Assembly (NCBI GenBank): GCA_943354475.1
Contig: CALRBT010000008.1
Span: forward strand, 1 to 46,266
DNA length: 46,266 bases
Direction of reading: 5' to 3'
Source of the DNA: Parcubacteria group bacterium
GTDB taxonomy: Bacteria > Patescibacteriota > Minisyncoccia > Phycocordibacterales > CALRBT01
In this document: one piece after another, positions 3,784 through 19,847 of the stretch
How the letters are laid out: each line of letters opens with the position of its first letter
How positions within the stretch are numbered: the stretch's first letter is position 1
Notes under the pieces: model-generated
What the model was told of the DNA's origin: nothing
Seen by the model: the letters and a program-made list of their open reading frames with translations, nothing else
The model's database searches: none
Made by a program: the position numbers and the translations under genes

Positions 3784-3813
3784 ATCATAGCAAGGTGTAA
3801 ATTTTAATGCCAA
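3784..3813 (-). promoter_or_regulatory. Sigma70-type promoter of the 1252-aa protein gene
   Basis: On the minus strand a TTGGCA -35 box is followed after 18 nt by TATGAT, preceded by TG one base upstream (extended -10). The start codon lies about 24 nt downstream of the -10. The -35 sits next to a DnaA-box-like 9-mer at 3818-3826. Confidence 0.55.
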
Positions 3814-3817
3814 CCCT

Positions 3818-3826
3818 TTATCCACA
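3818..3826 (+). promoter_or_regulatory. DnaA-box-like 9-mer
   Basis: Exact TTATCCACA, the E. coli-type DnaA consensus, just upstream of the -35 of the large minus-strand gene and on the left flank of the hairpin array. Binding is inferred. Confidence 0.35.
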
Positions 3827-3857: not shown

Positions 3858-4116
3858 CCCAGACCACATAAGGTTCCCTTATAGTCGCAGACTATAAGTG
3901 TTCGCTTATGCGAAGCATAAGCTCCCTTATACCCAGAGGGCATAAGGCCCACTCCGTATCCTCAAGAGGATAAAGGTACCCTTATACCCAAGGGGTATAA
4001 GTGTTCGAATTATATTTTGGAAAAACATAATTCTCCCTTATACCCAAGGGGCATAAGTGTCCCACAATGTCTTAAACAGACATTGCGTCCCCTTATCCAC
4101 AGGACCACATAATTCC
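3858..4116. repeat. Array of consecutive non-identical short hairpins
   Basis: Eight inverted repeats follow one another with only 2-12 nt between them: 3878-3898 (arms CTTATAGTC/GACTATAAG), 3904-3922 (GCTTATGC/GCATAAGC), 3925-3947 (10 bp, one A-C mismatch), 3957-3972 (TATCCTC/GAGGATA), 3981-4001 (CTTATACCC/GGGTATAAG), 4007-4033 (7+4 bp), 4037-4057 (9 bp, one mismatch) and 4065-4085 (CAATGTCT/AGACATTG). Loops are mostly 2-3 nt. Arms differ from unit to unit while pairing is kept. Linkers are related (AGTGTTC, AGTGTCC). ACCACATAA occurs on both flanks (3863-3871 and 4104-4112). It lies between divergent genes, so it is not an ordinary terminator. Confidence 0.8.
4093..4101 (+). promoter_or_regulatory. 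DnaA-box-like 9-mer
   Basis: Second exact TTATCCACA, directly after the last strong hairpin of the array. Together with 3818-3826 it brackets the array. Function is inferred from sequence only. Confidence 0.35.
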
Positions 4117-4331
4117 TGTTGACTTCAAATGACCTAAACGAGATAATCAACAGTACCCCAACGTGGAAATGGCTATTACTTCATAAACATCAATTGTTTG
4201 TGAATCCTGATAATGATGAAGCGATCTAATTTTGATTTAGGCTTATTGTATCTAAATATAAAGACTCCTCGGTCAAACCCTCTAGTAGAGGCGCTCGTCG
4301 TGAGCGAAACCCCGACCTGAAGACGAAAAAA

Positions 4332-18579: not shown

Positions 18580-18774
18580 CAAGATTAAAAGCAAACTTTG
18601 TTAGCTTTTAATCTTGTGCGCCTAAGCAATCAGATTTATCTGATTGCGCCCAGGATTCGAAGAGTTTGAGTATGTCGCACGGAGCGTAGCGAGTACGACG
18701 CGAAAACTGTACCGTCCATGTAATGGAAGAATCCTTGTTTGAAAAGGTATACTGCCCCTGTAAGGGGAGAATCC
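18560..18774. repeat. tRNA-Arg-linked element with inverted tRNA 3' end and hairpins
   Basis: 18604-18624 is the exact reverse complement of 18572-18592 (acceptor strand plus trailer), and 18650-18661 (CCAGGATTCGAA) is the exact reverse complement of the T arm 18560-18571. Between them sits a 25-nt insert, 18625-18649, that is itself a hairpin with 10-bp arms GCAATCAGAT/ATCTGATTGC. A block shared with the tRNA-Pro element follows (18662-18734), containing CACGGAGCGTAGCGAGTACG and ending TGGAAGAATCC, and then one more hairpin unit, CCCC/GGGG with AGAATCC, to 18774. This explains the 240-bp gap up to tRNA-Gly. Confidence 0.8.
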
Positions 18775-19684: not shown

Positions 19685-19847
19685 CACGTAGTGAGGATGA
19701 ATAGACAAAGCAGTTTGTCTACGTCCGGGATTCGAAGAGTTTGAGCATATCGCACGGAGCGTAGCGAGTACGATACGTAAGGGAACACTTATACTCTGGA
19801 GTAAAAACTGTACCGTCCATGTAATGGAAGAATCCAGGCACTCCGAC
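19668..19847. repeat. tRNA-Pro-linked element flanked by direct repeats of the tRNA 3' end
   Basis: The last 18 nt of the tRNA region, GAATCCCGGCACTCCGAC (19668-19685), recur as GAATCCAGGCACTCCGAC (19830-19847), 17 of 18 identical, like attL/attR. Inside are a hairpin TAGACAAA/TTTGTCTA, an inverted copy of this tRNA's own T arm (CCGGGATTCGAA, 19725-19736), and the block shared with the tRNA-Arg element (CACGGAGCGTAGCGAGTACG through TGGAAGAATCC). It also contains one TACTC/GAGTA hairpin whose flank resembles the 3.9-kb hairpin array. Confidence 0.75.

Follow-up and report, generated by a model that had tools for sequence, protein, structure and literature searches.

The genomes of Patescibacteria are strongly reduced, and little work has been done on their repeats. 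One such genome raises a simple question: what is a run of eight adjacent hairpins doing in the gap between two divergent genes? The hairpins lie at positions 3858–4116 of a 46,266-nucleotide stretch of DNA from a Parcubacteria group bacterium (assembly GCA_943354475.1, contig CALRBT010000008.1), the whole of which is here called the window. The array is one member of a family of palindromic repeats newly recognised in Patescibacteria. Units of this family are dispersed, occur patchily across distant members of the group, and stand as discrete insertions in host sequence of various kinds. With a probability of roughly 0.7, the eight hairpins are clustered units of a miniature palindromic repeat, either mobile now or mobile recently or formerly. 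The original prediction, made from the window alone, described the array but missed the main point, namely the inserted copies in coding genes, introns and tRNA 5' ends of distant Patescibacteria.

A structured array between divergent genes

The interval 3858–4116 lies between two open reading frames (ORFs), whose predicted divergence is confirmed, and contains eight neighbouring inverted repeats spanning 3878–4085 (Table 1). Their arms are 7–12 bp long, with one mismatch in some, and their loops comprise 2–5 bases. Relative to dinucleotide shuffles, the minimum free energy of the interval has z-scores of -7.2 (DNA), -6.6 (plus-strand RNA) and -7.3 (minus-strand RNA), and none of 200 shuffles folded as stably. 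Counting hairpins with at least seven perfect pairs, the array has five, and the other 259-bp tiles into which the window was divided (176 in all) have zero to two each; not one of 2000 shuffles had more than two. The claim of eight adjacent, non-identical hairpins is thus borne out, both by the inverted repeats located and by z-scores of about -7 on either strand.

In each unit, a conserved core, TAAGTGTTC - y - TCCCTTA, comes after a variable hairpin termed H1. Here y is either nothing, a two-bp mini-hairpin (GCTTCGC, ACTTCGT, GTTACAC or ATTACAT), or a longer stem, for instance GAATTATATTTTGGAAAAACATAATTC, with 12 bp at most. Unit length ranges from 26 to about 60 bp. The H1 arms in arrays differ yet pair (TACCC/GGGTA, TACTC/GAGTA, TAGTC/GACTA, TCCTC/GAGGA and TGCCC/GGGTA). 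Of the five inner pairs, nearly all units in arrays form four to five, compared with zero to two for most other matches. Units beside probable ribosomal protein genes (L046, L068 and L073) have long H1 arms of about 15 bp and a loop of roughly 60 bp.

The array sits between two outward-facing promoter-like sites, which backs the earlier view that its hairpins are not gene terminators. Any role that it has there is probably passive, as a spacer that is tolerated between divergent predicted promoters and does no work for either gene.

Table 1. Features of the array, its neighbours and a related unit, in window coordinates
Feature	Position	Strand	Remarks
ORF of 1252 aa	start 3759	minus	left neighbour of the array
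Promoter-like site of the 1252-aa ORF	3784–3813	minus	faces away from the array; consensus match only
Left flank GACCACATAA	3862–3871	plus	closes conserved block TACCGGACCCAGACCACATAAGGTTCCC; exact direct repeat of 4103–4112
Hairpin 1, A type, CTTATAGTC-GCA-GACTATAAG	3878–3898	unstranded	inverted-repeat and folding analysis
Core block TGTTC...CTCCCTTA around hairpin 2	3899–3929	plus	frame identical to the 22-bp core of other genomes
Hairpin 2, GCTTATGC-GAA-GCATAAGC	3904–3922		inside core block 3899–3929
Hairpin 3, A type, one mismatch	3925–3947	unstranded	inverted repeat, folding
Hairpin 4, TATCCTC-AA-GAGGATA	3957–3972	unstranded	folding and hairpin count
Hairpin 5, A type, CTTATACCC-AAG-GGGTATAAG	3978–4004	unstranded	inverted repeat, folding
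Hairpin 6, long core-block hairpin, centre TTTTGGAAAA	4007–4033	unstranded	inverted repeat
Hairpin 7, A type, one mismatch	4036–4057	unstranded	inverted repeat, folding
Hairpin 8, CAATGTCT...AGACATTG	4065–4085	unstranded	inverted repeat and hairpin count
Array end CCTTATCCACA	4093–4101	plus	holds exact DnaA-box 9-mer TTATCCACA
Right flank GACCACATAA	4103–4112	plus	exact repeat of 3862–3871
Promoter-like site of the LysM/M23 peptidase ORF	4119–4147	plus	faces away from the array; consensus match only
LysM/M23 peptidase ORF	from 4332	plus	right neighbour of the array
Single short unit TACTCCAGAGTATAAGTGTTCCCTTA	19778–19803	minus	within repeat behind tRNA-Pro; absent from paralogous repeat behind tRNA-Arg

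A family dispersed through the host genome

When compared by blastn with its own 786-kb genome, the array yields 14 matches on eight contigs. Contig C2 has a further copy of block TACCGGACCCAGACCACATAAGGTTCCC, matching over 54 bp at 94% identity, and hairpin 6 is copied at C3:19230-19304 over 75 bp at 87% identity. The building blocks of the array are present at about 22 sites on 12 contigs (neighbours merged), of which about eight are multi-hairpin arrays and the remainder single units or pairs. Copies of TAAGTGTTC number 26 against three for a reversed control, and the core with up to three mismatches gives 16 matches against one. Three of the TAAGTGTTC matches fall in ordinary coding sequence (C4:6239, C5:1756 and C13:3537) and were dismissed as chance. 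At 26 copies in 786 kb, TAAGTGTTC does not approach the density of DNA uptake sequences, which is about one copy per kb. The original prediction of a repeat family with variable yet paired arms was right. Beside several units near gene ends (L019, L020, L028 and L030; contigs C2, C5 and C6) there are T/G-rich strings such as TTAGGGTATAGGGGTTAG and TTAGGTTTTAGTGG, which look like another repeat.

The ends of the arrays bear on a different explanation, in which the hairpins would be a platform for control at the DNA level (DnaA titration, or nucleoid or gyrase binding) retained for its function between genes. The flanking repeat and DnaA-box 9-mer noted earlier at this locus both prove to be exact pairs, the box TTATCCACA occurring at 3818–3826 and 4093–4101, 275 bp apart. 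However, the box is not specific to the locus. The match at 4093 arises because several arrays end in CCTTATCCACA, which is common to those at C2:76838, C2:91708 and C12:17407. The same DnaA-box end, in the form CTCCCTTATCCACA, closes an array in a distant Patescibacteria genome (L127:1650-1750), where a promoter-like TATAAT lies downstream of the array. Closure of four host arrays and one distant array by TTATCCACA, the location of the array between divergent predicted promoters, and the uniformity of the core between genera would all suit a control platform. DnaA boxes are also in excess (17 against seven in the reversed control), with five at or beside arrays, which lends a little substance to the suggested role in replication control. 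On the other hand, GC skew, which was to be checked around 4 kb, does not turn there; the box is missing from most units elsewhere; and a platform of this kind would not predict in-frame coding copies or intron copies. Such a function is unlikely. A replication origin is doubtful, given the absence of a skew turn at 4 kb and a DnaA-box excess that partly reflects arrays sharing one end.

A broad but patchy distribution

The core was scanned as an exact pattern, AAGTGTTCRCTNNGYTCCCTTA, across 84,980 prokaryote species. This pattern has 18 fixed and two half-fixed bases, such that about two matches are expected by chance in about 5 x 10^11 positions. The scan returned 52 stretches, 49 of them in 25 genomes other than the host. 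These carriers are labelled Staskawiczbacteria, Adlerbacteria, Zambryskibacteria, Nomurabacteria, Taylorbacteria and other Patescibacteria, with three records labelled only 'uncultured bacterium'. The other three stretches (Flagellimonas/Muricauda) belong to one orthologous flavobacterial gene and were discarded; they are about the number expected by chance. Within carriers, the 49 exact cores compare with 20 that have one or two mismatches, and the reversed control gave none.

Elsewhere, the core was not found in 383 other sampled members of the class, and Rickettsia yielded no match to the exact core among the species scanned. Viral contigs did not contain the strict core, nor did blastn of the array match a phage. 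A looser gapped pattern had at least 120 matches in viral contigs, single in each contig, which were judged to be chance, and matches in two genomes of the same order (G026 and G043) were likewise short chance matches. The distribution of the core is thus broad but patchy, and its copies are homogeneous. The original prediction would have been undermined by a lack of arrays in relatives together with hairpin density at chance level; instead, copies occur in other genomes and the array exceeds its shuffles.

Copies inserted in genes, introns and tRNA flanks

Some insertions can be compared with a version of the sequence that lacks the unit. The host has six paralogous repeats, several of which follow tRNA genes. 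Four of them contain a precise block of 26 bp, TAAGGGAACACTTATACTCTNGAGTA (its last two bases TA or TG), and two lack it. One of these blocks confirms the related unit that had been predicted, in minus orientation, at tRNA-Pro (Table 1). A composite repeat, TTCGAAGAGTTTGAGTATNTCGC...AAAACTGTACCGTCCATGTAATGGAAGAATCC, also lies behind several tRNA genes (window positions 18640–18760 and 19720–19845; also contigs C5, C7 and C9) and is apparently a separate, tRNA-linked family.

Protein-coding genes provide further examples. In the leucyl-tRNA synthetase (LeuRS) of the host, a unit encodes NLREHSEHLSSQ, a 12-residue (36-bp) in-frame insert at a position where the Thermus enzyme is gapped. In-frame copies are also present in Pfam-confirmed ORFs for TruB, NusA (in two species), GyrB and a beta-CASP RNase, the last coinciding with a gap in the Thermus homologue. 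The leuS gene on contig C3 (L024:881-3760) has a NUDIX domain inserted after the LeuRS editing domain (Pfam E 1.9e-12, residues 395–512).

Copies are not confined to proteins. They occur in opposite orientations in the Rfam-confirmed group I introns of L085 and L074, and within the 23S rRNA matches of L045 and L078. In all seven tRNA cases, which come from three Staskawiczbacteria genomes, the copy meets tRNA position 1 with zero gap. These are six tRNA-Ala and one tRNA-Ile, although two may represent a single locus, as the contig ends that carry them may overlap. Together, these contexts fit the insertion of a small element better than they fit any single cellular function.

The tRNA cases might also be taken to indicate a structured RNA or RNA-processing element, such as a tRNA leader hairpin or a transcript stabiliser. 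This would account for the seven copies that abut tRNAs exactly, and for several others located directly after stop codons or ahead of terminator-like hairpins. At the array itself, where the original prediction had allowed for such a role, the idea is not supported: the array lies upstream of both outward predicted promoters and would therefore be transcribed from neither, and no Rfam family matches it, the only covariance-model matches in the window being four tRNAs. Both orientations are moreover found relative to host genes and introns. An RNA function for the family is accordingly quite improbable.

How the units might spread

From their dispersal and discrete insertion, we infer that the units are mobile or were so recently. 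They would spread as single- or double-hairpin DNA acted upon by an enzyme. New units would land beside or inside older ones, generating mosaic arrays, and insertions would persist where they are harmless, that is, between promoters, in intron loops, or in frame in protein loops or tails. Two processes would each be compatible with the paired arms: selection for the hairpin as the form recognised, or template switching, in which one arm serves to correct its partner.

Template switching during replication could alternatively make and correct palindromes as an intrinsic property of the sequence, with no mobile element involved. Arms that nearly always match despite their differing sequences are what quasi-palindrome correction would yield. 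However, this process leaves unexplained the 22-bp core in 25 other genomes, the 54–75-bp copies between contigs, and the precise 26-bp and 36-bp insertions. As a sole cause, hairpin growth of this sort is largely refuted and very improbable, but it may act jointly with mobility.

Several observations weigh against a mobile repeat. No mobilising enzyme was found, and Y1_Tnp (PF01797) has no match in the host genome, which is 98% complete. Nor is Y1_Tnp commoner in carriers (16 of 25) than among class members (68 of 112). No consistent target duplication is readable at the copies, although several units have TA at their borders. Among the genomes compared, which include no relative of the same family, there is no orthologous empty site for the array locus. 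The search by exact pattern partly imposes the apparent conservation of the core. As a lone hairpin, the minimal core is weak (about -1 kcal/mol), and the trait that copies share is therefore sequence, not a stable fold. Sequence immediately upstream of the core in other genomes is only moderately richer in hairpins than chance, with 31% having z < -2 compared with 7% downstream; many of the upstream stems are irregular.

A bolder proposal is that the family represents a new class of bacterial hairpin element, which needs no Y1/RAYT transposase to move, recognises tRNA genes at their first base, group I intron loops and also coding DNA, has spread horizontally among Patescibacteria, and adds short peptides to essential proteins. 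This is conceivable but doubtful. The occurrence of the element in LeuRS, TruB, NusA, GyrB, rRNA introns and tRNA 5' ends suggests that selfish DNA, whether active or recent, persists even in streamlined genomes. A palindromic element of this type would supply new protein segments and mark the exchange of DNA between distant lineages.

Comparison with known palindromic elements

A description of this repeat family was not found in the open-access literature, where papers matching Patescibacteria and palindromes deal essentially with CRISPR or with unrelated subjects (subscription papers and preprints fell outside this scope). In behaviour, the family is closest to Rickettsia palindromic elements (RPEs) and to clusters of repetitive extragenic palindromes (REPs), known as bacterial interspersed mosaic elements (BIMEs).

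The family could be canonical REP/BIME DNA, the hairpins of which are nicked as single strands and mobilised by a REP-associated Y1 (HUH) transposase. Like the REP/BIME/REPIN and RAYT systems, it forms mosaic clusters of short hairpins between genes, here about eight multi-hairpin arrays, and is presumed to be non-autonomous mobile DNA; Y1 genes are common in the class. The minus-strand core, GGGA-hairpin-GAA, loosely resembles some Pseudomonas REPs. REPs have also been reported inside genes (PMC3733652). In contrast, the GT[AG]G tag that defines REPs (PMC6006769) is missing at the hairpin foot on both strands of the core, and sites are far fewer (about 22). The host has no Y1 gene, and carriers have them at the frequency of the class sample. 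Readable carrier Y1 genes are mostly flanked by other hairpins, and the core is present at only one of 20 such loci (L127), about 0.9 kb from the gene. Since two defining features, the GT[AG]G tag and a cognate Y1 enzyme, are lacking, the family is not filed as REP, and this identity is improbable.

Carrier Y1 genes at L123, L125, L130, L134, L135 and L137 each have hairpin inverted repeats of their own on either side, TIRYT-like and unrelated to the core. The terminal inverted repeats of TIRYT transposases (PMC3733652) offer a likeness, in that comparable hairpins flank Y1 genes in carriers. They differ in that those hairpins are unrelated to the core and the host genome has no such gene.

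Another parallel comes from small genomes of a different kind. In the mitochondrial DNA of fungi and algae, double-hairpin elements consist of two adjacent hairpins with co-varying arms, and no enzyme is known for them. The present family resembles them in what may be a two-hairpin unit with jointly varying arms that has spread in a small genome. Here the 26-bp block with its paired H1 was inserted as one piece, while the minimal core hairpin is weak. The present family is, however, bacterial, with a conserved 22-bp core and other sequence.

RPEs are likewise small palindromic repeats scattered through a reduced genome and found in frame in essential protein genes. In R. conorii, truB is reported to be interrupted by RPE-1 (PMC3733652), and truB holds a copy here too. 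The units described here differ in being 26 to about 60 bp long and often arrayed, and in occurring also within group I introns and flush with the 5' ends of tRNA genes. Their sequence is probably unlike that of RPEs, and the likeness is one of behaviour. Alongside Rickettsia, the family would offer an independent system in which to test how coding genes acquire palindromes.
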